Counted from the stretch's first letter, positions 9,647 through 28,392 are shown. The stretch is 36,189 nucleotides of DNA from Balneolaceae bacterium (GCA_007123715.1 SKKO01000315.1:1-36189), one strand, 5' to 3'. Notes: generated from the letters alone by a model not told the origin. Program-made: numbers and translations.

Positions 9647-11446
9647 TTATGCTGCCACTCCCATTAATTTTTCCAATCTTTTTCTGCTCGTCTCAACACT
9701 GACTTTGATGGACTCCAGATTCTCGCCCGGATAAGGAGTTTGTGACGCTATATCCAGGCAATACTCCATTCCCTCTTCAAGGTTTTTGTGCATTTTCTTC
9801 ATTTTACGCATTTCCGGGCTATCATCATCCATTCCGCGCATAAGCTCTTCCATATAATCCACATACATCTCAAGTTCTTTTGCAAACATATGGGGACGTT
9901 CTTGCGGAACCAGTGATTCTCTTCTGCCATAGATATGGTCAACCATCTCTTCCAGTGTATAAAACCTGTTAAACCATGCGATATTTGGCCCCGGGCATAT
10001 TGCCTGTCTGCCATATGATGGTTTTACTATTCCGAGCCGGATCAGTGAACCTGTTCCAAGGTTTGTACAAAGGCAGGTTTTTTCCATTACCTTTTTCTTT
10101 TCAGCATCTTTTTCCTCGGAAGTAAGTTCGCTTTCATTGATATGATTGATTTTTAGAATCTGGTATTGAGCAGAGGCTGTACAAATGGGATTCTCTGTAA
10201 ATTCTACATTGGACACCAAAAATCCTTTTGGACATTTCGAGCCGGGTTTACCTTTTTCAATCAATTCATTTTTGTGAGTTTCGGAACCTGTACCCCGGAT
10301 ATTATTAAATGGCACCCCGAGTGGTGATACATTACTCAGGAATACATCATCGATTCCCGCTTCGGCCAACACTGCGGATGTTACATCATCTACACAAGTT
10401 GCTTCAGTAACCAATAAAAATGGTGTACCCCAACCGGTGGCATCCATCTCAAAATCATTTAAAAGGCGCCTCATTTCTCCGTTGTTCCCAATGCCGCCCT
10501 GAACAGTAATTCGTGGTGTGGTATTAATTTCTTCATTCTCGGTATAATCCCAGCCCTGTGACTCATAAAAACTTTTGATCATCGGCCTGAAAGTCTCCAT
10601 AAGCTGATCTTTTTTCTCATGAAACTCTCTTAGTAAAACCGGCAGCAATACCCCGTCTGATGCAAATGCATGGCCTCCGCAGTTCAGTCCCGATTCAATT
10701 CTGAACTCGGCAACTTCAAGTCCTTTTTTTGCAAGAAATTTTCCCTGAATCAATGCAGAACGAAAATCGCTTACCTTCAAAATTATTTTCTTTTTGATAT
10801 CCCCGGCATGGTCTCTGTAAAAATCCTTGAATTCTGCAAGGTAACTGTACAAGCGGGGGTTGAATCCGGCTGATAAAACCACGCTTGAAGACAATTTACT
10901 CATTGCAAAACCCCGAAGGGCTGCGCTGGCATCGCTGTACTCCGAACTCAAAGGTTCACCATCATTTCCGGATTTCAGTGCATCCACTTTTGCCATAATA
11001 TTTACATCGATGGCACCGGGAGTCATGCGTTCTGTAAGTTCCTGGATAAATTTCTGCCGGCCTTTCTTCTCTGTAAGAGCAGATACAAAATTATAAGTTT
11101 CCTTAAGCGGGTTGCTATCCGGTAATAAACGAAAATAGCGATCCTTTTCGGTATCTTCAAAAAGCGGTAAATTTTTCAGGTCATCAAATTTTGATGAAAC
11201 AATATCTGACACTGTATCAAGGTATGCCATAATTCTTACTGCCCTGCCATCTGGCAAAGAACGAGGAATATTTTTGTACTCTAATCCAAATTCGTTACAA
11301 TAATATTTTCTGATTTTTTCGCACAGGAGATCATCCACTACCGAAATTACAGAATGAATACCTAGATGTGCCACGCGGATAGGACTGTCTATGGAATGCC
11401 CGGTGCCCATAACCGGGATATGAAATAGATGTTGGTTTTGAATCAT
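9647..11446 (-). CDS. Conserved protein of unknown function with TIM-barrel-like motifs and clustered cysteines
   Basis: A 599-residue soluble protein I cannot name. The opening (HIPVMGTGHSIDSPIRVAHL, GIHSVISVVDD) and the segments ESGLNCGGHAFASDG (251-265) and PRITVQGGIGNNGEMRRLL (311-329) followed by GWGTPFLLVTEAT recall phosphate/FMN-binding loops of TIM-barrel enzymes such as nitronate monooxygenases and glutamate synthase, but the match is at the level of pattern only. The C-terminal third has five cysteines, C405, C422, C458, C460 and C484, in the segments KCPKG, NPICTASAQY, KTCLCTNLG and AICPGP, which could bind an iron-sulfur cluster or zinc. The tail (510-590) is helical and charged. 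No partner genes flank it. An oxidoreductase is my guess, at low confidence. Confidence 0.6.
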   Translation of the reverse strand: MIQNQHLFHIPVMGTGHSIDSPIRVAHLGIHSVISVVDDLLCEKIRKYYCNEFGLEYKNIPRSLPDGRAVRIMAYLDTVSDIVSSKFDDLKNLPLFEDTEKDRYFRLLPDSNPLKETYNFVSALTEKKGRQKFIQELTERMTPGAIDVNIMAKVDALKSGNDGEPLSSEYSDASAALRGFAMSKLSSSVVLSAGFNPRLYSYLAEFKDFYRDHAGDIKKKIILKVSDFRSALIQGKFLAKKGLEVAEFRIESGLNCGGHAFASDGVLLPVLLREFHEKKDQLMETFRPMIKSFYESQGWDYTENEEINTTPRITVQGGIGNNGEMRRLLNDFEMDATGWGTPFLLVTEATCVDDVTSAVLAEAGIDDVFLSNVSPLGVPFNNIRGTGSETHKNELIEKGKPGSKCPKGFLVSNVEFTENPICTASAQYQILKINHINESELTSEEKDAEKKKVMEKTCLCTNLGTGSLIRLGIVKPSYGRQAICPGPNIAWFNRFYTLEEMVDHIYGRRESLVPQERPHMFAKELEMYVDYMEELMRGMDDDSPEMRKMKKMHKNLEEGMEYCLDIASQTPYPGENLESIKVSVETSRKRLEKLMGVAA

Positions 11447-14494: not shown

Positions 14495-14982
14495 GAATCA
14501 AAACCTTTAGATATTAGTCTTTTAATATATTAAAAATCTTTGTTTTATGAACAGCTTTAGAGGTTATGCCATTCATCGATATTTCATAAACCTTTATCAA
14601 GGTAAAAAAATATGACGGGAGCCAACCATCCCCGTTGCTTTTACTTCCTATTTGCCGGGTTGCTGACCAACTACACAGATAAATTCGTTGGCAAAATAAT
14701 CAGGCTGGTGTTTCGAAATACGGACCCGGAATTTTGTTTGGCCGAGTGTCATGACTTTCACAAGCTTACCTTAACGTCTTTTTGTGTGCGGGAGATCTTT
14801 CGGAAACAGGAAAGTCAAAAAAATGCAGTATCTGAAATCTGCGCGCGAGCATTACACTTATTCTAATTTCATCATGCTTTCATCTTGAATTCGTTAAGTT
14901 GTTAAGAAAATTATCGCTTAAATAGTCGATTTTTTAAAAAAATTATATAGGAATTAAGACTCTTACATCTTATAGTAAACAA
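14495..14982. other. Divergent promoter region between ftsH and the copper-like operon
   Basis: About 490 bases with no gene I accept. The left 120 bases should carry the ftsH promoter. The right end is very AT-rich (CGATTTTTTAAAAAAATTATATAGG at about 14930-14953) and should carry the promoter of the plus-strand operon starting at 14983. A minus-strand 37-codon ORF (14648-14761) and a plus-strand 84-codon ORF (14612-14866) overlap each other and have no recognisable product. Confidence 0.45.
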
Positions 14983-15348
14983 GTGAAAAAGATCTATTCT
15001 ATCATATTACTCTTATCCTTCCTTACAGGAGCCATACAGCCGATTGTGCCGCTGTTGGAATATCACTTTTTTAAAGAGAGTATTATTGAATTTTTTTGCG
15101 TAAACCGGGATTTGCCGGAGTCTGATTGTGAAGGTTTTTGTTACCTGACTAACCAGATTCAGGAGAGCCAGGATAAACAGTCTGAAACAAAAGCCGGTCA
15201 TGTAGAATATTATCCCGGAACGATATTATTGGATCATAGTATTGATTTAAATGTATTCCCCGAAACAGACGCCCGGTATATTGATGTAACGGTTTATGAT
15301 ATAAGTCCATCCTCAAAAACCGATATCCCACCACCAAAAACCAGCTGA
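14983..15348 (+). CDS. Small exported protein with CxNRDxP...CxGxCYL motif
   Basis: A 121-residue protein starting at GTG. It has a hydrophobic N-terminal segment (KKIYSIILLLSFLTGAIQPI) that is either a signal peptide or an anchor, then the motif C39-VNRDLPESD-C49-EGF-C53-YL, and an acidic C-terminus. Bacteroidota carry a small-protein family with this cysteine arrangement (CxNRDxPxxxCxGxC) near TonB receptors and metal genes; I assign it from memory, so the family link is moderate. The three cysteines could bind copper or another soft metal. Two genes downstream lies an OprC-like receptor, which fits. A hairpin follows the stop. Confidence 0.65.
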   Translation: MKKIYSIILLLSFLTGAIQPIVPLLEYHFFKESIIEFFCVNRDLPESDCEGFCYLTNQIQESQDKQSETKAGHVEYYPGTILLDHSIDLNVFPETDARYIDVTVYDISPSSKTDIPPPKTS

Positions 15349-15353
15349 GTTTT

Positions 15354-15377
15354 AAGGGCAAAAATTTAACTGCCCTT
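15354..15377 (+). promoter_or_regulatory. Hairpin after the first gene of the copper-like operon
   Basis: AAGGGCA (15354-15360) pairs exactly with TGCCCTT (15371-15377) around a 10-nt loop, six bases past the stop codon. No T-run follows, so it may be an mRNA processing or attenuation element rather than a full terminator. Confidence 0.4.
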
Positions 15378-15529
15378 CACATCAAACACGGTTTAAATGC
15401 ATTTATGGCCGGATCACAATTCCTCCCGGATTTCAGTGAAAGCTGATCTATATCTGTCAACTTTACAGCCATGTTTATTAGATGCTTACAACCGGACTAT
15501 TTATCTCCTAAACAAACTCAGTTATAACG

Positions 15530-16345
15530 ATGATGAAAAATTTGAAAATAATTCTGCCACTATTATTTAGTATACCTTTTTTAATGATGATTGCTATTGG
15601 ATGCAGCGATTCAAACTCCATAGACGAGGAAACCCCCGATCCTGATCTCTATAAACTTGGTGCATTCACTGACAATTCCGTAACCATTACAGCTTATGCC
15701 AATGCGCCCCTTGCAGTTGGATATAATGAAATCTACCTGGATGCGAGGGACAATCATGTTCCTGTACAGAATGCGCAATTCAGGTTTTTACCAATGATGC
15801 ATATGGAAGCTCATTCTCACGCCTCGCCATTTGAAAACCCCGAAACAGCTCGTGATCACGTGCACAACCTTTATGCAGCATGGGTAATTTTTACGATGCC
15901 AAGCGGAATGATGGGTACATGGGAACTCCAGCTTTCAGCTGAAAATCCTGCAAACCCCGGTATTGAGGCAACAGGAATCATTCCTGTTGAGGTGGAGGCC
16001 TCAACCCGTGTAAAAACATTTATGACCGATAACCAGACTCGATACGTACTTACATGGATTGAACCTGCATCACCGAAAGTTGGCCTGAATGATCTTAAGA
16101 TTTCACTTCACAAACGCGAATCGATGATGAGTTTTCCGCCTGTAACAAATGCCGTTTTTGATTTTGAACCCTGGATGCCTTCCATGGACCACGGTTCAAG
16201 CAATAATGTGCATCCCGTTCATGAAAGTCATGGTTTTTATAAAGGCAAGGTCAATTTCAACATGACCGGAGACTGGGAACTGAGGTTCAATATCGAAATA
16301 GACGGTGAAGATGCCGGATTGCATGTTTTTAAACTGGACTTTTAG
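15530..16345 (+). CDS. Met/His-rich FixH/YtkA-like lipoprotein
   Basis: A 271-residue lipoprotein: the signal ends in IAIGC with Cys25. The mature protein consists of two immunoglobulin-like halves of the FixH/YtkA type. The first (about 45-145) has FRFLPMMHMEAHSHASP with Met89, Met90, His91, Met92, His95 and His97, then TMPSGMMGTWELQL. The second (about 155-271) has EPWMPSMDHGSSNNVHPVHE and FNMTGDWELRFNIEIDG. Both show the family pattern MPxMxH ... G-x-Y-x-G-x-V/hydrophobic ... M-x-G-x-W-E-L. The dense Met and His clusters are typical of periplasmic copper ligands, so I infer copper binding or delivery. It lies 12 bases before the TonB receptor gene and 181 bases after the Cys-motif gene. 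Confidence 0.8.
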   Translation: MMKNLKIILPLLFSIPFLMMIAIGCSDSNSIDEETPDPDLYKLGAFTDNSVTITAYANAPLAVGYNEIYLDARDNHVPVQNAQFRFLPMMHMEAHSHASPFENPETARDHVHNLYAAWVIFTMPSGMMGTWELQLSAENPANPGIEATGIIPVEVEASTRVKTFMTDNQTRYVLTWIEPASPKVGLNDLKISLHKRESMMSFPPVTNAVFDFEPWMPSMDHGSSNNVHPVHESHGFYKGKVNFNMTGDWELRFNIEIDGEDAGLHVFKLDF

Positions 16346-16357
16346 CATGAATAGATT

Positions 16358-18595
16358 ATGAAAGCCCTGTATACCTTCATATTGATCTTTTGTTTAGTTT
16401 CTGTGGATGTACATAACAGTTTAGCCTCTCCTGAGGGAATCATCTCCGGCAGGGTACTGGATGCCCAAACTCGGAAACCTGTACCGGGAGCCCATGTTTA
16501 CCCGGAAGGCAGGGATAACGGCACGATTACCGATCATGACGGAAATTTCGTAATACATCTCTATCCCGGCCAAACCACACTGGTGATTAGTCATTTGGGT
16601 TTTCGTGTATATTTACTTGATCTTAATGATGTACATTTACAATCTCCTATCACTGTTTATCTCACTCCGGTGCCAATCCGGAGTGATGATATCATCATTA
16701 CTGCCGGAAGAATGCATATGCATAACCCGGGTGTATACAGCGATTCCAAAACCCGTGCTGTTGAAGACCATATGGGCAACATTCCAGGGCTCGATATGGT
16801 AACACGGGCAAACTTCGCAAAAGATCCCGTAATTCGCGGCTTGCGAGACAGCCGGGTGAATGTTCTCATCGACGGGATGCGCCTTACACCCGCCTGTGTT
16901 GACGGCATGGATCCTGCAACCGCATACGTGGAAGCGGATAATCTACAAGCCATCGAAATAAGCCGTGGCCAGGAAAATCAACTCTTATCTTCTACTGCTC
17001 CGGGCGGATCTGTCAATTTTGCCATGGCTCGGCCTGTATTGAACAGCGGCTTTCGCGGCAGTGCAGAAACGGGTTATCATACTGTAAGTAATCAGAGAAG
17101 TGTGCAATCAGCTTTTTCTTATGGTAAAAACAGCTGGGCCGTGCGAACTTCCGGAACATTCAGGGAGGCAGGAGATCTGAAACCCGGCAACGGTTCACGA
17201 ATTGCAGGTTCCGGTTTTACAAAAGGAAATGTTTATACCTCAATACTTTACAGTCCCAAAGAAAATCATGCGTTTAACCTGAGATATATCGGAGATTTTG
17301 CCGGTAAAATCGGTTATCCCATGCTGATTATGGATACCCGGCGGGCCGATGCACATATCACCGGGCTCGAGCATGCCTGGAAAAATTTAACCGGCAACAT
17401 ACACTCTATCACCACAAACCTGTACCTGAATAATGTGCGGCACTGGATGGATGACTACGACCGGGATGTTTCTCAGCGCGTAGTGATGCCAAATATGTTT
17501 ATGCCAATGTATGGTGAAACCACTACAGCAGGGTTAACCAGCCAAATGAGTGCAACATCAGGTAATCGGATCTTTAACCTTAAGCTGGAAATATTTTCGA
17601 TTGATGCATTTGCAGACATGCTGATGGAGCATGTCGATAGTTCCATTCGCGATATGTACCTTGTAAACCTTGGAAATGTGTCACAATATCACGGAGCTCT
17701 TTCTAAAAGCTTGCAGTATTTCTCCGTAAATGGATGGATTTTTGGCGCAAACGCACATGCTGAAATCGGCACCAACCGGATTCGCGAGCAGAGTGCAATC
17801 GCCACATACCGTGCAGAATATGCCGATAGTTCGAGCCTTGAACCAACCGATTTCGGCTATTCGGTTGGGCTATCTGCTGAAAAACAGGTCAATAACCGGG
17901 TACAATCCGGCATCCGGATATCTGACGGAAGACGCCTGCCCGGCCATCTCGAACGGTACGGTTACTACATCTACCAGCCTGTCGACGGATTTTTCTATAT
18001 TGGGAATCCTGCACTTAAACCTGAACGAAGCAGCCAGGCAGAAATATTTATCACCCTGGGAAGCGAACACTCCCGGTTCATCGGCAGTACATCATTATGG
18101 GTGAACTGGTTAAAGAACTATATCGCGGGCAGCCTGATTGACCAGCTTTTTAAGCGATATGATAATATGGGCATTGCCATACTCACAGGTTTTGAAACAG
18201 AGATGAGTGCCAGGATAAACAACCGGTGGAATTCTGCTGCTTCTGTATCGTATGTTTTTGGCCGGCACAATGAGCTGGATGAGCCCCTGCCAATGATGCC
18301 TCCATTAAAAGGATCGGTATCTATACAACGGGAATCAGAGCTTGTCTCATTTGAATCCCGCATTCGCTGGGCTTCTCCGCAAAACCGTATTGCAAAACAG
18401 AACAGCCTGGAAAACCAGACCGGGGGATACATCTTGTGGGATATCTATACAAGAATAAACCTTTCACAAAACCTTGTACTTCAGGTTGGCGCAGAAAACC
18501 TACTGAACACCTTTTTTACAGATCACCTCAGCGTAAACAATATGCCCGGCGCCGGCAGAAATTTTCACGGATCGCTGCGGGTTTTAATCAATTAA
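16358..18595 (+). CDS. TonB-dependent receptor, OprC-like (putative copper)
   Basis: A 745-residue outer-membrane receptor. The signal peptide (MKALYTFILIFCLVSVDVHN) is followed by a CarboxypepD_reg-like domain (about 26-105, starting GIISGRVLDAQTRKPVPGAH), a plug (about 128-225, with DPVIRGLRDSRVNVLIDGMR) and a 22-strand barrel ending GRNFHGSLRVLIN with a terminal aromatic-poor strand. In the plug the sequence C180-VDG-M184 within ACVDGMDPATAY aligns with the CxxxM copper site of OprC/NosA-type receptors, which read CPNRMDPP. Other Met clusters (MPNMFMPMYG) face the same theme. It is preceded by the Met/His-rich lipoprotein. Copper import is the best reading, though iron or a metallophore cannot be excluded from the sequence alone. 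Confidence 0.85.
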   Translation: MKALYTFILIFCLVSVDVHNSLASPEGIISGRVLDAQTRKPVPGAHVYPEGRDNGTITDHDGNFVIHLYPGQTTLVISHLGFRVYLLDLNDVHLQSPITVYLTPVPIRSDDIIITAGRMHMHNPGVYSDSKTRAVEDHMGNIPGLDMVTRANFAKDPVIRGLRDSRVNVLIDGMRLTPACVDGMDPATAYVEADNLQAIEISRGQENQLLSSTAPGGSVNFAMARPVLNSGFRGSAETGYHTVSNQRSVQSAFSYGKNSWAVRTSGTFREAGDLKPGNGSRIAGSGFTKGNVYTSILYSPKENHAFNLRYIGDFAGKIGYPMLIMDTRRADAHITGLEHAWKNLTGNIHSITTNLYLNNVRHWMDDYDRDVSQRVVMPNMFMPMYGETTTAGLTSQMSATSGNRIFNLKLEIFSIDAFADMLMEHVDSSIRDMYLVNLGNVSQYHGALSKSLQYFSVNGWIFGANAHAEIGTNRIREQSAIATYRAEYADSSSLEPTDFGYSVGLSAEKQVNNRVQSGIRISDGRRLPGHLERYGYYIYQPVDGFFYIGNPALKPERSSQAEIFITLGSEHSRFIGSTSLWVNWLKNYIAGSLIDQLFKRYDNMGIAILTGFETEMSARINNRWNSAASVSYVFGRHNELDEPLPMMPPLKGSVSIQRESELVSFESRIRWASPQNRIAKQNSLENQTGGYILWDIYTRINLSQNLVLQVGAENLLNTFFTDHLSVNNMPGAGRNFHGSLRVLIN

Positions 18596-18666
18596 ACTGT
18601 ATTGATCCGATTATTCTTACATTGATAAAGAAAGACTGTTTATAAAAAATAAATTAACAGGAACTG

Positions 18667-18921
18667 GTGATGAAAATAAAAAAAAACCTGGCAATCAGTG
18701 ATACCGGATTTGTATTCGACCCATCTACCGGTGATTCCTATACTCTGAATCCCATTGGACTCGAGATTATTCAACTTTTAAAAAACAACCTATCTCTGGA
18801 GGAAATCACAGAACACATGACAAGGGAATATGACGTAGATTCAAACACCTTCGAGCGATACTTTTACGATTTTACAGGAATGCTGAAACAGATGCAATTA
18901 GTAATACCGGATGAAGCATAA
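18667..18921 (+). CDS. PqqD family (RRE-fold) protein
   Basis: An 84-residue protein with the PqqD/RRE fold pattern: a short strand region, then NPIGLEIIQLLKNNLSLEEI (the conserved N-P-x-G-x-x-I-x-x-L-L helix at about 30-50) and EYDVDSNTFERYFYDFTGML leading to the hydrophobic end. PqqD-like domains bind leader peptides in RiPP pathways, and others partner with ATP-grasp or radical SAM enzymes. An AGGA ribosome-binding site lies 8 bases before the ATG. The gene overlaps the following ATP-grasp gene by 11 bases, which argues for functional coupling. I see no separate short leader-type ORF beside it. The role as peptide or carrier recognition subunit is inferred. Confidence 0.8.
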   Translation: MMKIKKNLAISDTGFVFDPSTGDSYTLNPIGLEIIQLLKNNLSLEEITEHMTREYDVDSNTFERYFYDFTGMLKQMQLVIPDEA

Positions 18922-19963
18922 ACAGTTAAATATTGCCATTTCGGGATTGAATAATGTAGACAGCCCGGGACCCGGGATTCCGGTCATCAGGGGAATTCGT
19001 GAATCAGGGAATTTTACTTCCAGAATAATCGGCCTCGCGTACGAAAACCTTGAACCCGGTGCGTATATGCATGAGTTTGTCGACAAAACCTATAAGGTCC
19101 CCTATCCTTCAGAGGGTGTGGATTCTCTGATGCAACGAATTCAGTATATTCATGAACGTGAAAAGATTGATGTTTTAATTCCGAATTTCGACTCGGAAAT
19201 TTTTGTATTCATCAAACTGGCTGATAAACTGAAGCAAATGGGAATCCATACGTTTTTACCCACCCTTGAGCAGTTTGAGGAGCGTCATAAAAGCAATCTG
19301 AACACTTTCGGAAAAACACATGGCATAAAGGTTCCGGAAAACATATCCGTTACCTCTCTTGAGGAGATAGAGCAGCTCAGGCAAAAAGATAAAATTGAGT
19401 TCCCGGTGGTTGTAAAGGGAAAATTTTATGATGCATATGTTGCCAAAAACCCGGAACAGGCCGCCATGTACTTTGCCAAAATCAGTGCACAGTGGGGTTT
19501 ACCGGTTGTTATTCAGGAATTTATCAGGGGAACAGAAGTAAATATTGTGGCTTTGGGCGATGGTGAAGGCAGAACAATCGGAGCTGTTTCCATGCGAAAA
19601 CAATACATCACAGATAAAGGCAAAGCGTGGGGTGGTATTACGCTGGATGACCCTTCCATGCTGGAATATGCCCGTAAACTGATTCACTCTACCCGATGGC
19701 GGGGCGGAATGGAACTGGAACTTATCCGTACTGCCGACCACGCCCTTTACCTGATAGAAATTAATCCAAGGCTGCCGGCATGGGTCTATCTTGCCGTTGC
19801 AGCGGGACAAAACCTGCCCGCTGCCATGGTTCAGCTGGCGATTGGAGAAAAAATAGAACCTTTTGAATTTTATGAAGTTGGTAAAATGTTTATACGTTAT
19901 TCATTTGACATGATCTGTGATTTAAGTGAATTTCAAAACCTATCCACACTGGGAGAACTTTAA
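18911..19963 (+). CDS. ATP-grasp ligase (CarB-like)
   Basis: A 350-residue ATP-grasp enzyme. Residues about 1-110 form a preATP-grasp Rossmann-like domain (IAISGLNNVDSPGPGIPVIR and VLIPNFDSEIF). The ATP-grasp core has FPVVVKGK at 165-171 and QEFIRGTEVN at 202-211. The Mg-binding end is GGMELELIR at 265-273 and LIEINPRLPAWVYLAVAAGQ, with Glu283 and Asn285 as ligands. It resembles the carbamoyl-phosphate synthetase ATP-grasp group rather than D-Ala-D-Ala ligase. Members form acyl-phosphates and then amide or thioester bonds. It starts within the PqqD gene and is 17 bases ahead of the decarboxylase. The acceptor and donor are unknown; I infer a peptide-bond or amide ligase for a small product. 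Confidence 0.85.
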   Translation: MKHKQLNIAISGLNNVDSPGPGIPVIRGIRESGNFTSRIIGLAYENLEPGAYMHEFVDKTYKVPYPSEGVDSLMQRIQYIHEREKIDVLIPNFDSEIFVFIKLADKLKQMGIHTFLPTLEQFEERHKSNLNTFGKTHGIKVPENISVTSLEEIEQLRQKDKIEFPVVVKGKFYDAYVAKNPEQAAMYFAKISAQWGLPVVIQEFIRGTEVNIVALGDGEGRTIGAVSMRKQYITDKGKAWGGITLDDPSMLEYARKLIHSTRWRGGMELELIRTADHALYLIEINPRLPAWVYLAVAAGQNLPAAMVQLAIGEKIEPFEFYEVGKMFIRYSFDMICDLSEFQNLSTLGEL

Positions 19964-19980
19964 CACATCCGAAAAGTCTT

Positions 19981-21333
19981 ATGGGAAAAAAACCTTTTGA
20001 ACGCCCGGTCATTACAAAAATAAATGCGGGGATGCCTGCTAAATTTGGCCTTCAGATTCGGCATGACCCTATAACGGACATTGACGGAGTTCCCCTGCAG
20101 TCACTGATGGATCAGTACGGTTCTCCATTGTTTGTCTATTCAGAAAAAACCATCCGGCAAACGTATATAGAAGCATACCGTGCATTCTCATCACGCTATC
20201 CCAATGTGTTGCTTGCATGGTCTTATAAAACGAATTATATCAATGCTATATGCAATATTTTCCATCAGGAAGGAGCATGGGCAGAGGTTGTCTCGGGATT
20301 TGAGTACAGAAAAGCACTGAAAAATGGGGTGAATGGCGGGCACATTATCTTTAACGGGCCATATAAGTCGACTGATGATTTGATTCTGGCGATAAATAAT
20401 GAATCTCTCATTCACATCGATCATTTTGATGAGCTTTATGATATCATAGAAATCAGTAAATCAATGGAGAAAAAGCCGAAAGTGGCTGTCAGAGTGAATA
20501 TGGATATTGGTATTTATCCGGCATGGGACCGGTTTGGCTTTAATTATGAAAACGGAGAAGCCTGGGATGCCCTGAATCGCATCATGCACTACGAAAACCT
20601 TGAACTGGTTGGCCTGCACACCCACATCGGCACCTACATTATGAGCACAGCCCCGTACAAAGTTGCATCTAAAAAAATGGCGGATCTGGCGATCGGGCTG
20701 GCCCGTAAGTTCAACCATCACATTCAGTACATCGATATGGGCGGAGGTTTTGCATCAAAAAACACGCTGAAAGGCGGCTACTATCCGGGCAGCGACACCA
20801 CTCCATCATTCGACGATTATGCAGAAGCAATCATATCTGAACTGATGAAAGCCGAATTTGCACCGGACCATCTGCCCATGCTGATTCTTGAAACCGGCCG
20901 GGCATTAATCGATGACGCAGGCTATCTGGCAGGAACTGTAATTGCCAACAAACGCCTTGCAGACGGTCAGCGGGCTAGCATTCTGGATGCGGGTGTAAAT
21001 CTACTGTTTACATCTTTCTGGTACGATCATGATATAAGACCCGGAAAAGACGTCTCAGATCAAACCGAAGAGACTGCAATTTTTGGTCCGTTGTGCATGA
21101 ATATAGATGTCATCAGAAAAAGTACGGCCTTTCCGCTGCTAAAAAAGGGAGATCCATTCGTCATCAAAAGAGTCGGGGCATACAATAATACTCAATGGCT
21201 GCAATTCATTACCATGCGGCCCAATGTTGTATTGATAGATTTGAAAGGGAAAGTGCATATCATCAGGGAAAAAGAAACCCTGGAAACGTTAAATCAGCAT
21301 GAATATACACCTGATCATCTTCAGGTTATTTAA
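19981..21333 (+). CDS. Fold-type III PLP-dependent decarboxylase, LysA/Orn-DAP family
   Basis: A 450-residue alanine-racemase-fold decarboxylase like diaminopimelate decarboxylase. Lys83 in AWSYKTNYINAI is the PLP-binding lysine, followed by VVSGFEYRKAL, HTHIG at 213-217, GGG at 254-256 and ETGR at 304-307. The Cys of the second active-site motif is in FGPLCMNIDVI (C372), where the standard DAP decarboxylase motif is GPxCESxD; the Glu that contacts the distal part of DAP is replaced by Asn, and Tyr401 is present in VGAYNNTQW. This points to a substrate other than meso-DAP. Within the operon it follows the ATP-grasp by 17 bases. It is probably a tailoring enzyme that removes a carboxylate from an amino-acid-derived product, rather than the housekeeping lysA. 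Confidence 0.85.
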   Translation: MGKKPFERPVITKINAGMPAKFGLQIRHDPITDIDGVPLQSLMDQYGSPLFVYSEKTIRQTYIEAYRAFSSRYPNVLLAWSYKTNYINAICNIFHQEGAWAEVVSGFEYRKALKNGVNGGHIIFNGPYKSTDDLILAINNESLIHIDHFDELYDIIEISKSMEKKPKVAVRVNMDIGIYPAWDRFGFNYENGEAWDALNRIMHYENLELVGLHTHIGTYIMSTAPYKVASKKMADLAIGLARKFNHHIQYIDMGGGFASKNTLKGGYYPGSDTTPSFDDYAEAIISELMKAEFAPDHLPMLILETGRALIDDAGYLAGTVIANKRLADGQRASILDAGVNLLFTSFWYDHDIRPGKDVSDQTEETAIFGPLCMNIDVIRKSTAFPLLKKGDPFVIKRVGAYNNTQWLQFITMRPNVVLIDLKGKVHIIREKETLETLNQHEYTPDHLQVI

Positions 21334-21355
21334 AGAATAAATACCACAGGCGGGT

Positions 21356-23539
21356 ATGTTACATAAAATTGACTGGTTTTGGAAAGGGTTTTTAAACAGC
21401 TATACGCAAATTTTCTTCTCGGATAATAAGCTGTTTGCCGCCCTGCTTATTCCCGTAACATTCATCGATTTTTATGCCGGCCTGTTTGGGTTAACTTCTG
21501 TTCTCTTCACCAATATTATCGGTTACTTTATCGGTTTTGATACCCAAAAAATTCAGAAAGGGTATTACGGATTTAACTCCCTTCTGGTGGGGCTTGGGCT
21601 TGGCATCTACTATGAACCGGGATTGGTACTGTTCATTCTGGTTCTGATTGCAGCCATTTTTACACTCTTTATCTCGGTAACCATAGAAGGAGTGATCGGA
21701 AAATATTACTTGCCGCATCTCAGTCTTCCCTTCGTCTTTGCGCTTTGGCTTCTGATGCTTTCATCCCGTGAATTTTACGCTCTGAGCCTGAATGAGAGGT
21801 GGATATATACACTTAATGATCTTTATATCATTGGCGGGCCCTCTTTGGTTTCTGTTTACGAATGGTGGAATCAATTACTGATCCCCTCACCGCTCAGATC
21901 TTATTTTCTTTCTCTTGGAGCCATTCTATTTCAGTTCAGTGTATTATCGGGAATCATCATCGCTATTGGCCTGCTGATCTATTCAAGAATTGCCTTTACA
22001 CTCTCTCTGATCGGTTTTTTTGGTGCCTGGCTTTTCTATTGGCTAATCGGTGCCGAAATATCTGAAGTCGGTTACAGCTATATAGGATTCAACTACATAC
22101 TGACGGCGATCGCTCTTGGCGGATTTTTCATTATTCCGAACATACAATCCTATATCTGGGTAATTGTAGTTGTTCCTATGGTTGCCATTGTCACGATCAG
22201 TATGGATTCTTTTCTCTCCTTTTTTCAGTTACCGGTATATGCCCTCCCGTTTAATATTACCGTGCTGATTTTCCTTTACATATTGCAATTCAGGGTAAAC
22301 AATAAGTCAAAGCTCTACACCTGGTTTGTCCAGAGAAATTCACCGGAGCGTAATCTCTACTCCTTTTTAAACTATCGCGAACGGTTTGCAGTATACTCTG
22401 AGATACCTGTGGCACTTCCATTCTTTGGGGAGTGGGTGGTTACACAGGCACATAACGGAGAATACACCCATAAAGGCGAATGGAAACACGCCTGGGATTT
22501 TGAAATGACCGATGAGGATGGAAAGACTTTCAAAAATAATGGAGATTTCCCCGATGATTATTACTGTTTCAATAAACCTGTTACCGTTCCGGCTGAAGGG
22601 ATCGTGGAAGAGGTAATTGATAATATCGACGACAATTTGATCGGCAAGAGAAACCTCGCTCAAAATTGGGGCAATACTGTAGTGATCAGGCATCTGGATA
22701 ATTTATATACAAAGCTTAGCCATCTGAAAAAAGGTTCTGTAAAAGTGAGCCGCGGTGACCGCGTACGAACCGGGGATGTTATGGGCCTTTGTGGAAATTC
22801 AGGTAATTCACCGTATCCGCATCTTCATTTTCAACTGCAAACCACTCCTCATATCGGGTCAAAAACACTGGAATACCCAATCACAAATTACAACCTTAAA
22901 AAAAACAGCGGGAAAAAACTGATAGAAACGGGCATACCCGGCAAAGAAGATCGCGTATCAAATGTTCAGATTAATACGTCTTTAAAAAATGCTTTTAACC
23001 TGGTACCCGGCAGATTAATGGAGTTTGATGTAGAAGGATTAAAAACACGAAAAGTGAAATGGGAGGTGAAAATAGATAATCACCTGAACCGGTACATCGA
23101 ATGCATTCAAACGGGATCAAAAGCATTTTTTAAACATGAATCGGCTATGCTTCACTTTCTGCATTTTGAGGGTGAGCGTACTTCACTTCTCTATTATTTC
23201 TATTTGTCAGCCTATAAAATCAGTTTTGGGTTCGAAAATGGCCTTATTTTAGAAGACAGTTATCCGGTTAATCAGATATTCAATCCCGTTAAAATTTTTC
23301 TCCATGATTTCACCGCCCCTTTCTTTCAGTATCTTGAAGGAAATGTTGAAATCAGATACCCGGGAAAAAACCACCATTTTGAAATATCTGATATTCAGTT
23401 AGATGGCACGATCAAAAAGAAACTTTTCGGACGTACAATCTCTCAGATGTCTTTCCTTTTCCGGCTGAATAATGACGGACTGCATGACTTCCATTTTTCC
23501 GGAAATAACCATCAGATTAAAGCCCGATGCGAAAAGTAA
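21356..23539 (+). CDS. Urea transporter / M23 peptidase fusion
   Basis: A 727-residue protein combining a membrane transporter and an extracytoplasmic peptidase. Residues about 20-310 are a urea transporter (UT) domain with the two-fold repeat: YGFNSLLVGLGLG at 71-83 and YIGFNYILTAIALGG at 242-256, and the paired LSLPFVFALW and YALPFNITVL segments. Residues about 360-510 are an M23/LytM-type zinc endopeptidase: HKGEWKHAWDFEM with Asp381, SHL with His456, GDRVRTGDVMGLCGNSGNS, and the H489-L-H491 motif. The remaining 210 residues are beta-rich and unassigned. UT domains move urea or small amides through the inner membrane; the peptidase should then lie outside. The gene follows the decarboxylase by 22 bases and overlaps the next by 13. 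Confidence 0.85.
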   Translation: MLHKIDWFWKGFLNSYTQIFFSDNKLFAALLIPVTFIDFYAGLFGLTSVLFTNIIGYFIGFDTQKIQKGYYGFNSLLVGLGLGIYYEPGLVLFILVLIAAIFTLFISVTIEGVIGKYYLPHLSLPFVFALWLLMLSSREFYALSLNERWIYTLNDLYIIGGPSLVSVYEWWNQLLIPSPLRSYFLSLGAILFQFSVLSGIIIAIGLLIYSRIAFTLSLIGFFGAWLFYWLIGAEISEVGYSYIGFNYILTAIALGGFFIIPNIQSYIWVIVVVPMVAIVTISMDSFLSFFQLPVYALPFNITVLIFLYILQFRVNNKSKLYTWFVQRNSPERNLYSFLNYRERFAVYSEIPVALPFFGEWVVTQAHNGEYTHKGEWKHAWDFEMTDEDGKTFKNNGDFPDDYYCFNKPVTVPAEGIVEEVIDNIDDNLIGKRNLAQNWGNTVVIRHLDNLYTKLSHLKKGSVKVSRGDRVRTGDVMGLCGNSGNSPYPHLHFQLQTTPHIGSKTLEYPITNYNLKKNSGKKLIETGIPGKEDRVSNVQINTSLKNAFNLVPGRLMEFDVEGLKTRKVKWEVKIDNHLNRYIECIQTGSKAFFKHESAMLHFLHFEGERTSLLYYFYLSAYKISFGFENGLILEDSYPVNQIFNPVKIFLHDFTAPFFQYLEGNVEIRYPGKNHHFEISDIQLDGTIKKKLFGRTISQMSFLFRLNNDGLHDFHFSGNNHQIKARCEK

Positions 23540-24855
23540 TCATCATCTCCATATTTCTGCTTTCGGTTTGCAAAACCGGTTATGGCCAGGCGCAACTAAC
23601 CACTTCGTCAGTGAATGCGATCACTTACCAGCAATGGGCGAATCAGGACTGGGAAGCGCTCATAGAATCAGGCAATAGCGCTCTGGCTGCGGGTATTGAT
23701 TTCTATTACCTCAGATACCGGTTGGGCATTGCCTGGTACGAAAAAAAGAACTTCCACAAAGCAGGTATGCATTTCAATAAAGCCTATCAATTGAACTCCG
23801 GTGATGACCTGTTAAGAGAATATCTCTACTATTCGTACGTCTTCTCAGGCAGAGAATACGAAGCCTCCTTTTTGGATCACGGCTTTACAAGCGGTTTTAA
23901 GAACAGGCTAAACCTTCAAAACAACCGTTCTGTAAAACAGGCCTATATTGCCTATTCATATCAGCCGGGAGCATCCTCGTCAGAAATATCACGATTTGAT
24001 TTTACCTCTGTACCTGAGGGCTATCAAACCATTTCAACGGGATACCATCTGCTCAATATCGGGCTTGAGCACCGGGTGGGTTCACGCGTATGGCTGCATC
24101 ATACCTTCAGGCATATCCAAAAAAATTACTATCTGTATAATAATATCACTGATTCCGGTATCCGGAACCCAAACGATTATATTTATCTGAACCAGTATTA
24201 TCTCGGCGCCACAACACTCATCAAGCCCGGCCTGGATGTCCGTTTTGGTTTCCATTATATCCATCTGCTGAATTATGAAACAACCATTACTTCACCTCCC
24301 CGTCCAAGAACCATACGCACGTCTGTAACCGGTTACGACCTGGCGGGGTTTCTGTCTGTATATCACCGGTTCAATTATGCTTCGGCCGGGCTTTCGACCT
24401 CCATTGCTAACCTGAATAATGCAACACAATACCAGCAAAATGCCATCATTTCACTTTTTCCATTCGGCAATCTCAATTTCTACACCACCTCTGTGATTTC
24501 ATATCAGTCAGAAAAAAAAGTGAGTGGCCAATGGCGCAACCAGTTTATTCTGAACCAAAAACTTGGCCTTAAACTCACCGGACGGATATGGGCTGAAGCT
24601 GATGCAACATTTGGTGATGTTCTGAACGTAGTATCAAATGACGGAAGTGTAATATATAACGATCCGGACGTTACCAGAATAAGTTATGGTCTTCGTCTTC
24701 ACACAATACTGTCCAGATCTTTAACCATGCTTCTGGACTACCGTCATTTAGAGAAAGAGAGTAACTTTGTTTTGTCACAAATCAGCACTCAGCTACCGGA
24801 AAGTATCCCCTATAACACCTTTTCATTTTCAGTAACACTCTTATGGAATATTTAA
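23527..24855 (+). CDS. TPR-containing outer-membrane beta-barrel protein
   Basis: A 442-residue exported protein. It starts with a signal peptide (MRKVIIISIFLLSVCKTGYG) and has two or three TPR-like helical repeats at about 40-125 (YLRYRLGIAWYEKKNFHKAG, then LLREYLYYSYVFSGREYEAS). From about residue 140 onward are alternating amphipathic strands of an outer-membrane barrel (GYHLLNIGLEHRVGSRVWLH and so on) ending in FSFSVTLLWNI. The layout is like YaiO-type barrels with N-terminal TPRs, used in surface export. The start codon overlaps the end of the transporter-peptidase gene by 13 bases and the stop overlaps the next TPR gene by 13 bases. Role in export of the operon product is inferred. Confidence 0.75.
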   Translation: MRKVIIISIFLLSVCKTGYGQAQLTTSSVNAITYQQWANQDWEALIESGNSALAAGIDFYYLRYRLGIAWYEKKNFHKAGMHFNKAYQLNSGDDLLREYLYYSYVFSGREYEASFLDHGFTSGFKNRLNLQNNRSVKQAYIAYSYQPGASSSEISRFDFTSVPEGYQTISTGYHLLNIGLEHRVGSRVWLHHTFRHIQKNYYLYNNITDSGIRNPNDYIYLNQYYLGATTLIKPGLDVRFGFHYIHLLNYETTITSPPRPRTIRTSVTGYDLAGFLSVYHRFNYASAGLSTSIANLNNATQYQQNAIISLFPFGNLNFYTTSVISYQSEKKVSGQWRNQFILNQKLGLKLTGRIWAEADATFGDVLNVVSNDGSVIYNDPDVTRISYGLRLHTILSRSLTMLLDYRHLEKESNFVLSQISTQLPESIPYNTFSFSVTLLWNI

Positions 24856-25460
24856 GATTATCGCTTTTATCCATCTCAATCCTCCTCCTCATAAACATGC
24901 CTCTATATGCACAGGATCATCTCACAGATGCCTTCCGGGCAAGTTATGAAGCTGAACGAAAGAGTGAGTATCGGGCTGCGGCCGAATACCTTTTGGATGT
25001 ATATGATTCATCATCCTATGAGCTGAACCTCAGGCTCGGCTGGCTGAACTATCAAAAAGGCAATATGGAAGCATCCATTCAATTTTATTCACAGGCCGTG
25101 GATCTGAAGCCCTATGCCGTGGAACCAAAACTTGGGCTTGTATATCCCTATTCTGCAATGGGAATGTGGGATGAGGTCATCGAACTTTACCAACGCATTT
25201 TGAGTACTGACCCGCAAAACAGCCTGGTGAATTACCGGATGGGGCTCATCTATTACAACAGGGGCCAACATGAACGTGCAGATCCTTTTATCGAAAAAGT
25301 GGTCAACCTCTATCCGTTTGATTATGATTCGCTCCTGCTGTTTGCCTGGAACAAACTGATGTTGCAGCGCTCAAGAGAGGCACAAGTGTTATTTCATAAA
25401 GTTTTGCTGGCCAATCCAGGAGATGAATCTGCTACAACTGGCCTCAGTTTGATTCAATAA
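24843..25460 (+). CDS. Exported TPR protein
   Basis: A 205-residue protein: signal peptide (MEYLRLSLLSISILLLINMP, then LYAQD) and about five TPR motifs to the end. Recognisable helices are YELNLRLGWLNYQKGNMEAS, VEPKLGLVYPYSAMGMWDEV, SLVNYRMGLIYYNRGQHERA and YDSLLLFAWNKLMLQRSREA, each with the spacing of TPR helix A and B. It should act as a periplasmic adaptor. It is the last gene of the run and overlaps the barrel gene by 13 bases, so the two TPR proteins probably interact in one export or assembly complex. Confidence 0.8.
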   Translation: MEYLRLSLLSISILLLINMPLYAQDHLTDAFRASYEAERKSEYRAAAEYLLDVYDSSSYELNLRLGWLNYQKGNMEASIQFYSQAVDLKPYAVEPKLGLVYPYSAMGMWDEVIELYQRILSTDPQNSLVNYRMGLIYYNRGQHERADPFIEKVVNLYPFDYDSLLLFAWNKLMLQRSREAQVLFHKVLLANPGDESATTGLSLIQ

Positions 25461-25470
25461 AAGAATCAAA
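25448..25470. other. Hairpin covering the convergent stop codons
   Basis: TTTGATTC (25448-25455) is the exact reverse complement of GAATCAAA (25463-25470) around a 7-nt loop. The TAA of the TPR gene and the stop of the convergent SIS gene both lie in it. No T-run follows, so it is a possible transcript end for both genes. Confidence 0.5.
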
Positions 25471-26233
25471 CCCCTGCTATTCTTCTTTTATATTCATCCA
25501 GGGCTTCCTTGAGACGTTCATGGGCAGTTTCGTCACCCGGTATATTGTGGGAGGGGTGAATATACAATTTGGTGCCCCGTTCCTCAAGAATTTCGGCTAC
25601 GGTCGTAATTACCATCCACACAATTGTGGTAAACGCCAGGGTGGAAACAGGGCCCACTTTATCAGTATGATGCTGAAGCTGAACCGTGGCATCTACGGAC
25701 GGTACACACGAATCGATCACGATATCTGCAATTTCAAATAACTTTCTGCCCGATGAATGGCGTGTTTTTGTATCCACGAAAGCTTTTTCTGATCCGCATA
25801 CCACCAGCTTAAGCCCGAGCTCTTTTGCCCTTAGTGCCACGTCAATAATAACGTTGTTGATACCCGAATGGGAAAAAAGCCACATGGTGTCTTCATCATG
25901 AAGATTATAGCTCTTCACGATTTCGCGCCCGTACCCTTCCACTCTTTCGAGAAAGACAAACTGATGAACGCCCATATCTCCGTGGATGTGGGTGAAAAAG
26001 GATAGCGGCAATTCAATCATCGGATGAAAACCCACAAATCCGCCGATTCTCGGATACATCTCCTCAATCGGAATGGTTGAGTGGCCGCAGCCAAATGTAT
26101 GCACCCATCTCCCTTTTTCGATGGAATCGGCCATCATGGTTGCAGCTTTTTCAATCGCTGCCATTTGTGTCTTTTCGATCTCGTCAATCACTGTTCGGGC
26201 ATTTTTCAGCCATTCTGATGCTAATCGGCTCAT
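25466..26233 (-). CDS. SIS domain sugar isomerase-like protein
   Basis: A 255-residue cytoplasmic protein with a phosphosugar-binding SIS fold. Residues about 40-60 read GRWVHTFGCGHSTIPIEEMY, the first SIS phosphate-binding loop; the second strand WLFSHSGINNVIIDVALRAK at about 118-137 carries the S-G-x-N-N loop. LKLVVCGSEKAF follows. It resembles the COG4821-type uncharacterised sugar-isomerase group. The gene is 18 bases after an MFS transporter and in an operon with a ROK kinase. It is likely to act on a phosphorylated amino or N-acetyl sugar; the isomerase or etherase reaction cannot be told from the sequence. It converges with the TPR gene, 5 bases between stops. Confidence 0.8.
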   Translation of the reverse strand: MSRLASEWLKNARTVIDEIEKTQMAAIEKAATMMADSIEKGRWVHTFGCGHSTIPIEEMYPRIGGFVGFHPMIELPLSFFTHIHGDMGVHQFVFLERVEGYGREIVKSYNLHDEDTMWLFSHSGINNVIIDVALRAKELGLKLVVCGSEKAFVDTKTRHSSGRKLFEIADIVIDSCVPSVDATVQLQHHTDKVGPVSTLAFTTIVWMVITTVAEILEERGTKLYIHPSHNIPGDETAHERLKEALDEYKRRIAGV

Positions 26234-26251
26234 ATCTGATGATTTTATTAT

Positions 26252-27427
26252 TTAAGGATTAATTTGAGGATGGTATCTGGTGAATCTCTTTAAAGCAAAC
26301 ACAAACAGGATATACGTGGCAATAATAGAAGCCGGAATCAGCATGAATGAAGAGCGCAGGCCAAACAGATCGCCTACAACACCGGCGATATAGGGCAACA
26401 GCATTCCTCCGATAAGGGCAATGGTAAAAGCCATGCTGAAAGCGGTGCCGGTCATGCCGGGATACAGATCACCGATATAGCCAAGCAACAGGGGGAATAC
26501 TGCTGCAAATCCGGCCCCAAGCAGGAAAATACTGAATGTCGCCATCACCGGATTATTTGTATTCAGCAAAATGAATGCCCCTGCCATCGCAATAGCCATA
26601 CTTATTTTGATAATGATTGCAGGCGGCCGCCATTTCAGGATCCTGCTGATTGCAAGCCTGCTCATCATCATACCGATCCAAAAAAAAGAAAGAAGGGTTA
26701 CAGCGGTGGAAGCTTCAACATTCAGTACATCCTGGAAGTAAGTGGCTGTCCATCCGCCGGTTGTAATTTCCATCCCGCTTTGAAAAAAAAGGATGAATGC
26801 CAGTAATAATAATGTGGGATGCTTCATAAGTGAGAGAGCATCTTTTGCAGGAAAACTGTGCGGCTGTTTCGGCTCGGGAAAGGTTAGCCGCAGATATACA
26901 AAAACCGCCAGCAGTACAATGATTCCAAGAGTGGCAATAATATGTGTATAGGTAAAATGGTTGAGTAAAGCTCCCAAAATTAATGGCACACTGAACGCAC
27001 CTATTCCGAAAAAAACGCCAAGCAAGGCTAATTTAGCGCTTCTATCGCCATCACTAATATCGCTTACAAGGGCATTGGCCGCTCCGTTCATAATCCCTCC
27101 CCCGAAACCAAAAAACATTATGGAAATTGAAAAAAGGAAAAAGGATGGCGAAAATGCAACGCCTTCCATTCCAATTAAAATGAGCAGTGTGCAAATCACC
27201 AGCAATTTTTTATACCCGAAACGGTCAACAATCGGGCCGAAGATTAATGAGCCTGCCAGTATCCCAAGATTCAGAAGGGTAAACAGAAACCCGGCCTCTG
27301 TCATGCTGATCTCAAACCGTGCAATAACAGCCGGCAGAATAGAACCAAGCGTTGTAAGTGTTATGCCAAATAACAGTAAACCCAGGCAGGCAGACCCAAA
27401 AAGAAATTTATATTCAATTTCTTTCAT
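26252..27427 (-). CDS. MFS transporter, sugar type
   Basis: A 391-residue transporter with twelve hydrophobic segments. The loop between helices 2 and 3 carries GPIVDRFGYKKLL, matching MFS motif A (GxxxDRxGRR), and the N-terminal half has the GGGIMNGAANALVSD segment common to fucose/N-acetylglucosamine-type symporters. The 391-residue length is normal. It overlaps the upstream ROK gene by 4 bases (ATGA) and precedes the SIS gene by 18 bases. I infer uptake of a sugar that the ROK kinase phosphorylates and the SIS protein then handles. The substrate is likely an N-acetyl-hexosamine or related sugar, without proof. Confidence 0.85.
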   Translation of the reverse strand: MKEIEYKFLFGSACLGLLLFGITLTTLGSILPAVIARFEISMTEAGFLFTLLNLGILAGSLIFGPIVDRFGYKKLLVICTLLILIGMEGVAFSPSFFLFSISIMFFGFGGGIMNGAANALVSDISDGDRSAKLALLGVFFGIGAFSVPLILGALLNHFTYTHIIATLGIIVLLAVFVYLRLTFPEPKQPHSFPAKDALSLMKHPTLLLLAFILFFQSGMEITTGGWTATYFQDVLNVEASTAVTLLSFFWIGMMMSRLAISRILKWRPPAIIIKISMAIAMAGAFILLNTNNPVMATFSIFLLGAGFAAVFPLLLGYIGDLYPGMTGTAFSMAFTIALIGGMLLPYIAGVVGDLFGLRSSFMLIPASIIATYILFVFALKRFTRYHPQINP

Positions 27428-28392
27428 TTCGCATCTTTCTTTTTTAATGATGATAACGCAAGATATGCCGCGCCGTACAGCCCTGCGCGGTTACCGAGGG
27501 CAGTTAGCTCGATGGATACCTGGTTCATGGCAACAGGCTGAGCCCACTTCCCGGCTTCGGTTTTTACTTGATCAAATAAAGCAGCGGCAGCCTCAAAGAC
27601 TCCGCCTCCGAGAATAATTTTTTCCGGGTTAAAGATACTGACCAGATTAGCCACAGACATTCCCCAAAATTCTACTGCCTCTCCGATGACCTGTTTGGCA
27701 ATAGGGTCTTTTTTTTGATATGCCTCAAATATATCTTTTGATGTGATTTTTCCGGGTGATATGTTGTCAAGATCGCCCCTGTAGGATGGCTGTTTGCCGA
27801 GATACGCCCTGTAAACACGGGCCAGCCCTTCGCCGGATGCATGATACTCAAAACACCCGCAATTCTGGTAAGCTGCAAGATAAGGCCTGTTCAGTGCCAT
27901 CCAGCCAATAGCACCTGCACTATAGCCCACTCCCTGTAAAACGTTGCCGTTTATCACAATGCCTGCACCAATACCCGTACCGACTGCCATATAAATCGCA
28001 TTTCTGCTCCCCCTTGCATTTCCCTGCCATATTTCACCGAGAATATAACAAGAACGGTCGCTTTCTATTGCTATGGGTATGGCCTCACCAAGCCGGATAC
28101 GCAGTTTTTCCGGCAATGGGTATTGATCCCAACCCGGCAAATTAGGAGCCCATACTGTGGCTTTTTCCCTGTGGTAAATGCCGGGCACACTCACACCTAT
28201 GGCTGATGTTTTCATTGTTTCCGCCCGGGCTTCTTTCAAAAGCATTTGGATAATACCTGTTATTGACATAAGAATTTCATCCCCCTCAGATCCTGCTACA
28301 GGTTCGGTGATTTCAGAGAGTAATTTTCCCTCACCGGAAAAAAGTCCTCCCGCAATTTTTGTTCCACCCAGGTCAACCGCTATTATTGCCAT
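27424..28392 (-). CDS. ROK family sugar kinase
   Basis: A 322-residue ROK kinase (glucose or N-acetyl-sugar kinase). It has the N-terminal ATP-binding DLGGTKIAGGLF (about 6-17), the central GTGIGAGIVINGNVLQGVGY with SAGAIGW, and GGGVFEAAAALF near the end. Kinase rather than repressor: there is no N-terminal helix-turn-helix. The usual zinc motif CxCGxxGCxE is replaced by a shortened CGCFEYHASG, with the Glu-x-His region retained. First gene of the minus-strand SIS-MFS-ROK operon, with the MFS gene overlapping its stop. The promoter is expected at 28393-28455, beside a copy of the dispersed repeat. Confidence 0.88.
   Translation of the reverse strand: MAIIAVDLGGTKIAGGLFSGEGKLLSEITEPVAGSEGDEILMSITGIIQMLLKEARAETMKTSAIGVSVPGIYHREKATVWAPNLPGWDQYPLPEKLRIRLGEAIPIAIESDRSCYILGEIWQGNARGSRNAIYMAVGTGIGAGIVINGNVLQGVGYSAGAIGWMALNRPYLAAYQNCGCFEYHASGEGLARVYRAYLGKQPSYRGDLDNISPGKITSKDIFEAYQKKDPIAKQVIGEAVEFWGMSVANLVSIFNPEKIILGGGVFEAAAALFDQVKTEAGKWAQPVAMNQVSIELTALGNRAGLYGAAYLALSSLKKKDAK

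Follow-up and report, generated by a model that had tools for sequence, protein, structure and literature searches.

Nine open reading frames on the plus strand fill positions 14983-25460 of a 36,189-nucleotide stretch of DNA from a Balneolaceae bacterium (the whole stretch is called the window here). They raise the question of whether copper-type and biosynthetic genes that follow one another on one strand belong to a single pathway and, if they do not, what the biosynthetic genes make. A sequence-only reading had joined them in one operon with a gene set for which it knew no described pathway.

Nine genes on one strand

All nine plus-strand genes of that reading are present, and its family assignments (YtkA, TonB receptor, PqqD, ATP-grasp, the Orn/DAP decarboxylase fold, urea transporter (UT) plus M23, and TPR) held in profile searches. 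The last six genes are packed as tightly as it had described, with an 11-base overlap, gaps of 17 and 22 bases and two 13-base overlaps. The 71-base gap between the receptor and PqqD-like genes was also reproduced, and a search of this gap found no terminator. One weak promoter-like match (9/12) lies within it at 18622-18650, in a searched region that held 20 promoter-like matches when 26 were expected from shuffles. No Rfam or tRNA elements were found in the window. The features are as follows.

14983-15348, plus strand: Cys-motif protein, 121 aa; part of the copper-type trio, outside the six-gene operon
15530-16345, plus strand: YtkA-like lipoprotein, 271 aa; part of the copper-type trio, outside the six-gene operon
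16358-18595, plus strand: TonB receptor, 745 aa; part of the copper-type trio, outside the six-gene operon
18596-25465, no strand assigned: the six-gene block as a module; the matching site in congeneric G017 is empty (391 bp)
18667-18921, plus strand: PqqD-like protein, 84 aa, small winged-helix protein of the RiPP-recognition-element type (PF05402, 39.8 bits)
18911-19963, plus strand: ATP-grasp carboxylate-amine ligase-like enzyme, 350 aa (ATP-grasp profile matches, structure model)
19981-21333, plus strand: alanine-racemase-fold PLP decarboxylase, 450 aa, FigC/FslC-like, citrate contacts replaced (nearest solved protein 7kh2)
21356-23539, plus strand: UT-M23 fusion, 727 aa (PF03253 and PF01551)
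21356-22381, plus strand: urea-transporter-fold channel domain of the fusion, residues 1-342 (PF03253, 208 bits)
22397-22933, plus strand: M23 peptidase domain of the fusion, residues 348-526 (PF01551, 53 bits), with a complete predicted zinc site
22934-23536, plus strand: C-terminal beta-rich domain of the fusion, residues 527-727 (model pLDDT mostly >85)
23527-24855, plus strand: N-terminal TPR and putative outer-membrane beta-barrel protein, 442 aa (sequence pattern, TPR matches)
24843-25460, plus strand: predicted periplasmic TPR protein, 205 aa, closing the block (TPR_1, 52 bits)

The copper-type trio and the six-gene block are independent modules

The nine genes are two independent modules, a copper-type trio and a six-gene block, and their adjacency in this genome is incidental. 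In none of 80 loci examined did the trio lie beside the decarboxylase gene. Among the order-level relatives searched, the fusion gene occurred in 5 of 59 (G020, G023, G053, G054 and G057), the YtkA gene in 18 and the receptor gene in 15. The complete trio was present in at least 12 of them, nine without the block, and two order-level genomes had the block without the trio. Three genomes (G020, G053 and G054) hold both modules, each time on different contigs, and in G020 the genes that come after the receptor are of the molybdenum-cofactor type, not PqqD.

DNA alignment of both flanks identified an empty site in G017, a genome of the same genus. Sequences matching window 14943-18585 and 25468-28062 lie only 391 bp apart there (G017:C259; L164 5741-6131), at the counterpart of window 18596-25465. 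The matched flanks carry the trio on one side and an SIS isomerase and an MFS gene on the other, with no block gene between. Because these flanks adjoin without the block, the block fills, as one unit, a position in the window that stands empty in a close relative. It may have been gained here or lost in G017, and we rank neither history above the other. In the decarboxylase tree, the window copy clusters with other Balneolota copies at full support.

The proposal that copper-like genes are joined to biosynthetic genes in one operon was therefore not borne out: in the gene-order comparison that it had itself called for, trio and block travel apart, the outcome that it had named as a refutation, and this together with the empty G017 site led us to reject the copper link. 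A single nine-gene operon is thus extremely improbable, although the genes share a strand and the terminator-free gap might allow read-through in this genome.

For the trio itself, the best receptor model was the TIGR01778 copper receptor, at 155 bits, far under the 472-bit equivalog cut-off. Close to the trio, several relatives have a gene encoding 599 aa (window 9647-11446; L166 1614-3404; L167 4386-6173; L168 11367-13163), perhaps a further member of this gene neighbourhood. In G048, the trio has an NrfH-like cytochrome gene at a distance of 2 kb (L170 6619-7203), and one is also present in the window at 34526-35113; this neighbour makes a link between the trio and nitrogen-oxide respiration possible. 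At the other end of the block, 5 bases part the TPR gene from the end of the SIS-isomerase gene in the window; in G020 (L114 1-8200) an RND efflux operon with TetR-type genes occupies this interval.

The six-gene block is a conserved operon with a patchy distribution

A decarboxylase scan of species-level genomes yielded 281 encoding stretches, and we examined 80 of these loci. Where the contig was long enough, the order PqqD, ATP-grasp, decarboxylase, UT-M23, TPR-barrel, TPR was kept in nearly all of them, with PqqD as the first block gene in nearly all loci and median intergenic gaps, in block order, of 1, 39, 29, -13 and -13 bases. The exceptions were L081, L082, L085, L108, L059 and L069. 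The first four retain the three biosynthetic genes without adjacent transport genes, which argues that ligase and decarboxylase are the core of the block. In L059 the UT gene is reduced to a stub, and in L069 the decarboxylase alone was found.

A phylum survey detected the decarboxylase in 33 of 394 genomes and 26 of 170 genera. Twenty more divergent loci from this survey, with decarboxylase identities of 45-64% (45-50% for some of them), all carry the block in the same order and without the trio. Conservation of one order in about 100 loci, at identities down to about 45%, is far beyond chance, and it is very likely that the six genes form a single operon. The block is a discrete operon, patchily distributed in many Bacteroidota and related phyla. 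Carriers include many aquatic and sediment bacteria, and among the cultured ones are Rhodonellum psychrophilum, Algoriphagus kandeliae, Prolixibacter bellariivorans and Thermaurantimonas aggregans. For the six-gene block, the claim of an undescribed gene set stood: we found no description in the open-access literature searched.

Between PqqD and ATP-grasp, two loci (L088 2807-3151; L103 924-1265) have an additional gene, for a small secreted protein carrying a CxxCH-type motif at its C-terminus. One decarboxylase copy (G344:C1:3432413-3433750) contains a single in-frame TGA in an otherwise intact block.

The decarboxylase resembles FigC but has lost its citrate contacts

The best solved match of the decarboxylase profile was the N-citrylornithine decarboxylase 7kh2 (E 9e-77), with diaminopimelate decarboxylases next at 2e-54; the profile also matched BtrK 2j66 and 7ru7. 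Like FigC/FslC, the block enzyme is an alanine-racemase-fold PLP decarboxylase with the catalytic Lys, the Cys and a Met after the Cys. It reached 231 bits against NF041039, under the 500-bit cut-off. Eight residues were invariant in 44 homologues: K83, T344, W347, Y348, C372, M373, I375 and Q405.

In FigC, M355, T327, T330 and Y331 have been proposed to line an enlarged pocket, and H357 and R387 to contact citrate (PMC7857480). We mapped these residues onto the block decarboxylase through the profile alignment to 7kh2. C354-M355 corresponds to C372-M373, T327 to T344 and Y331 to Y348, all kept, and the T330 position is occupied by W347. Both citrate-contacting residues are absent, with I375 and Q405 in their place in 44 of 44 homologues. 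The pocket is thus of a large-substrate type that is neutral where citrate would sit. A citryl substrate is disfavored by the Ile and Gln replacements, and the substrate would probably be an amino acid N-acylated with a group that bears no charge.

The catalytic-Cys loop reads C-M-N-I-D and lacks the acidic residue that ornithine and arginine decarboxylases (ODC and ADC) use after the Cys. Assignment as a canonical LysA was rejected, with a TIGR01048 score of 226.6 bits against a cut-off of 297.9 and no Glu directly after the catalytic Cys. A LysA-like gene with a C-E-T-D loop is found elsewhere in this genome, on C155, and a very long branch parts the block decarboxylase family from it in the tree.

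An ATP-grasp enzyme and a PqqD-like protein

The ATP-grasp enzyme keeps its ATP and metal residues in 50 of 50 homologues, among which K169, E209, E270, E283, N285 and R287 are invariant. Its model (pLDDT 87.7) had the CPS-like protein 2pn1 as best structural match (Z 29.5), followed at Z 24-26 by biotin carboxylases together with amino-acid ligases and PylC, which ligates the lysine side chain (about Z 24 for the latter two). Judged from the model, the fold does not separate amide ligases from carboxylases, and the reaction class could not be read from it. Since the adjoining decarboxylase seems to need an N-acyl substrate, an amide ligase is the simplest reading of this enzyme.

For the PqqD-like protein, the nearest solved proteins were the lasso-peptide RREs TbiB1 and TfuB1. 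The protein scored below the model for PqqD of PQQ biosynthesis (TIGR03859, 14.9 against a cut-off of 46 bits), and no PqqA or PqqE partners were found in the recurrent neighborhood of the block across 80 loci. The score against the HPr-rel-A system model TIGR04353 was marginal, at 34.5 bits just under the cut-off of 35. We also sought a conserved short open reading frame that could encode a RiPP precursor and found none in the loci tested, whether in the gaps, in the 700 bases upstream or in the 600 bases downstream. The short-ORF clusters that did appear near the block were an antisense reading of the upstream regulator gene, overlaps or copies from close strains.

A urea-transporter-fold channel is fused to an M23 peptidase domain

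The most unusual part of the block is the channel-peptidase fusion. We found no report of this architecture in the literature searched, and none of 78 records in a plasmid search covered the whole fusion. In the model (pLDDT 88.4), residues 1-342 matched dvUT and UT-A/UT-B at Z 37 over 310 residues (2.2 A). The domain thus belongs to the UT fold, and it scored 128 bits against the urea transporter equivalog TIGR03441 (cut-off 274.6 bits). Compared with dvUT, the Thr of the two LPxxT motifs is replaced by Ser (Ala in some sequences) and a second-half Glu by Ala, at positions of the dvUT alignment that we take to be pore-lining.

The M23 domain scored 53.1 bits against PF01551 (Pfam cut-off 28.7) and contains the H(x)nD and HxH motifs. 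Its model matched LytM, DipM and LasA at Z about 14. The predicted zinc site comprises H372, D381 and H491, with H456 and H489, and all five zinc/catalytic residues are invariant in 60 homologues. The H(x)8D spacing falls in the range known for M23 under the published motif definition (PMC9662197). Fold matches of the fusion model barely covered residues 527-727.

Both termini of UT-A are intracellular (PMC12649947) and the UT-M23 junction is basic (mean net charge +2.4), so the M23 domain is predicted to face the cytosol. In a halophilic archaeon, a member of a group without murein, membrane helices and a basic stretch likewise come before a related M23 protein. Basic stretches adjoin membrane-anchored M23 relatives in a halophilic archaeon and in Thermus (L162 2701-3627; L163 2665-3624) and suggest a cytosolic M23 domain in these proteins. 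A split between UT and M23 in L161 was unusable as evidence of location, as the reading frame shifts there at seven consecutive T (around 10990-11030), which could reflect misassembly, a mutation or a site of slippage.

The last two genes encode candidate envelope proteins. The 442 aa protein has a signal-like N-terminus and a barrel-like pattern, both read from sequence, and TPR matches occur in 42 of 55 homologues. In one branch its gene is replaced by one for a putative barrel of 270-300 aa, located after the TPR gene. The 205 aa TPR protein has 53 full-length homologues in the examined loci.

A candidate ligation-then-decarboxylation route

Our preferred reading, to which we assign a probability of about 0.4, is that the six genes at 18667-25460 act as one operon whose enzymes build a small molecule of amide type by ligation and then decarboxylation and whose other proteins move the product through the envelope. 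The ATP-grasp enzyme would couple a carboxylic acid other than citrate to an amino acid, most likely a diamino acid (ornithine or lysine, for example) acylated on its side-chain amine. The FigC-like PLP decarboxylase would then strip the alpha-carboxylate from the N-acyl amino acid to give an N-acylated amine. The PqqD-like protein could be a peptide-binding partner that presents substrate or carrier to the ligase. The channel domain with the urea-transporter fold would let the product pass, the M23 domain on the same chain, whose predicted location is cytosolic, might trim or release it, and the TPR/outer-membrane-barrel protein and the TPR protein would finish the route across the outer membrane. 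The analysis shows the unity and conservation of the operon, its catalytic residues and its folds; reaction order, substrate class, M23 location and transport direction are what we infer, and uptake instead of export would be equally compatible. The invariant catalytic residues of each enzyme lead us to expect one conserved product with a conserved role.

Several points weigh against this mechanism. A PqqD-like protein without a precursor peptide leaves its own role unexplained. Urea channels conduct small neutral molecules, whereas an N-acylated diamine would be charged. Characterised M23 enzymes are mostly extracytoplasmic peptidoglycan hydrolases; a cytosolic one would be unusual, and here the topology is predicted from fold and charge only.

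One alternative is a RiPP-like peptide-carrier pathway. In it, the PqqD-like protein would hold a ribosomal peptide whose gene lies elsewhere, the ATP-grasp enzyme would attach an amino acid to this peptide, the decarboxylase would decarboxylate the added group and M23 would free the product before the channel. MccE, which decarboxylates on a peptide-nucleotide, offers a model for such chemistry. The lasso-peptide RRE matches fit this pathway, as does an M23 domain with a complete site and a predicted cytosolic location. However, the flanks and gaps of the loci tested hold no conserved short open reading frame, and the window operon has no room for an internal one, and we consider the pathway unlikely. 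Also doubtful is a scheme that would make the block a novel type of small-molecule pathway. Here a PqqD-guided ATP-grasp/decarboxylase pair would build the product, possibly on a peptide carrier, and the channel with its cytosol-facing M23 domain, a single membrane protein, would cut it and carry it over the inner membrane to an outer-membrane barrel dedicated to it.

A metal-related role is hinted at by the genes upstream of the block. Of the 57 testable loci (those with enough upstream DNA), 21 have a Cys-motif AraC-type regulator as the gene immediately before PqqD, and 5 have a DUF2202 (ferritin-like) gene there; in L041, a ZIP gene precedes the block. About half of the regulators have the N-terminal motif KNMxCxCC and most keep the CC. 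Because their N-terminal likeness to a heavy-metal-associated domain is below the Pfam cut-off and the family is widespread (relatives in 181 of 394 genomes), they may offer a weak metal hint, one different from the copper trio. Our literature search on HMA-AraC regulators in Bacteroidota returned nothing relevant. These regulators lie just upstream of PqqD in L059, L061, L064, L066, L072, L074, L076, L077 and others, and those adjacent to the block form a closer group (L064 and G063 share 61%; other family members 48% or less). DUF2202 (rubrerythrin/ferritin-like) genes were seen beside the block, upstream of PqqD, in L061, L062, L063, L066, L071, L100, L103 and L104.

These neighbors, and the fact that FigC is a siderophore enzyme (PMC7857480), would fit a metallophore operon whose product binds iron or copper and is made by rhizoferrin-like ligase-decarboxylase chemistry. 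Yet both citrate-contacting residues are lost, the regulator family is common and its HMA-like part sub-threshold, and neither an NIS synthetase nor a TonB receptor family recurs among the neighbors of the 80 loci. We regard a metallophore as quite unlikely.

Improbable too, and more clearly so, is a cell-wall system. In this reading a periplasmic M23 domain would cleave peptidoglycan, and an amine or peptide made by the enzymes would serve to decorate or sense the wall. The structural matches of the M23 domain are peptidoglycan hydrolases, and cell-wall-recycling-type neighbors were seen by eye (AnmK-like in L148 and L153, MurQ-like in L159), but these neighbors are not widely recurrent. The UT topology and basic junction would instead put M23 inside, and a halophilic archaeon has a close relative of this M23 domain.

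Relation to known systems

The ligation-then-decarboxylation route has its closest counterpart in the rhizoferrin pathway of Francisella, where FigA-FigC (FslA-FslC) place a ligase beside a decarboxylase that acts on its N-acyl product (PMC7857480). There the ligase forms an N-acyl ornithine and the FigC-type decarboxylase removes the carboxylate; FigC and the block decarboxylase have in common the Cys-Met loop and the specificity-helix Thr and Tyr. However, FigC H357 and R387 are Ile and Gln in the block enzyme, the NIS synthetase of the Francisella pathway has an ATP-grasp ligase in its place, and the block lacks a receptor and adds PqqD, UT-M23 and an outer-membrane barrel.

In butirosin biosynthesis, BtrJ-BtrK are an ATP-grasp ligase and a PLP decarboxylase working with the carrier BtrI. 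The likeness lies in an ATP-grasp ligase paired with the same decarboxylase superfamily and in a small partner protein, but the block has no acyl carrier protein and no aminoglycoside genes.

The dvUT and UT-B urea channels share the fold of residues 1-342, whereas the block version is fused to M23. LytM-type M23 peptidases share the fold and the invariant H(x)nD and HxH motifs; the block domain differs in its H(x)8D spacing, its attachment to a channel and its predicted cytosolic location. The TonB copper receptor (OprC-type) module with a YtkA lipoprotein is represented in the window by the neighboring trio, yet it is separate from the six-gene operon.
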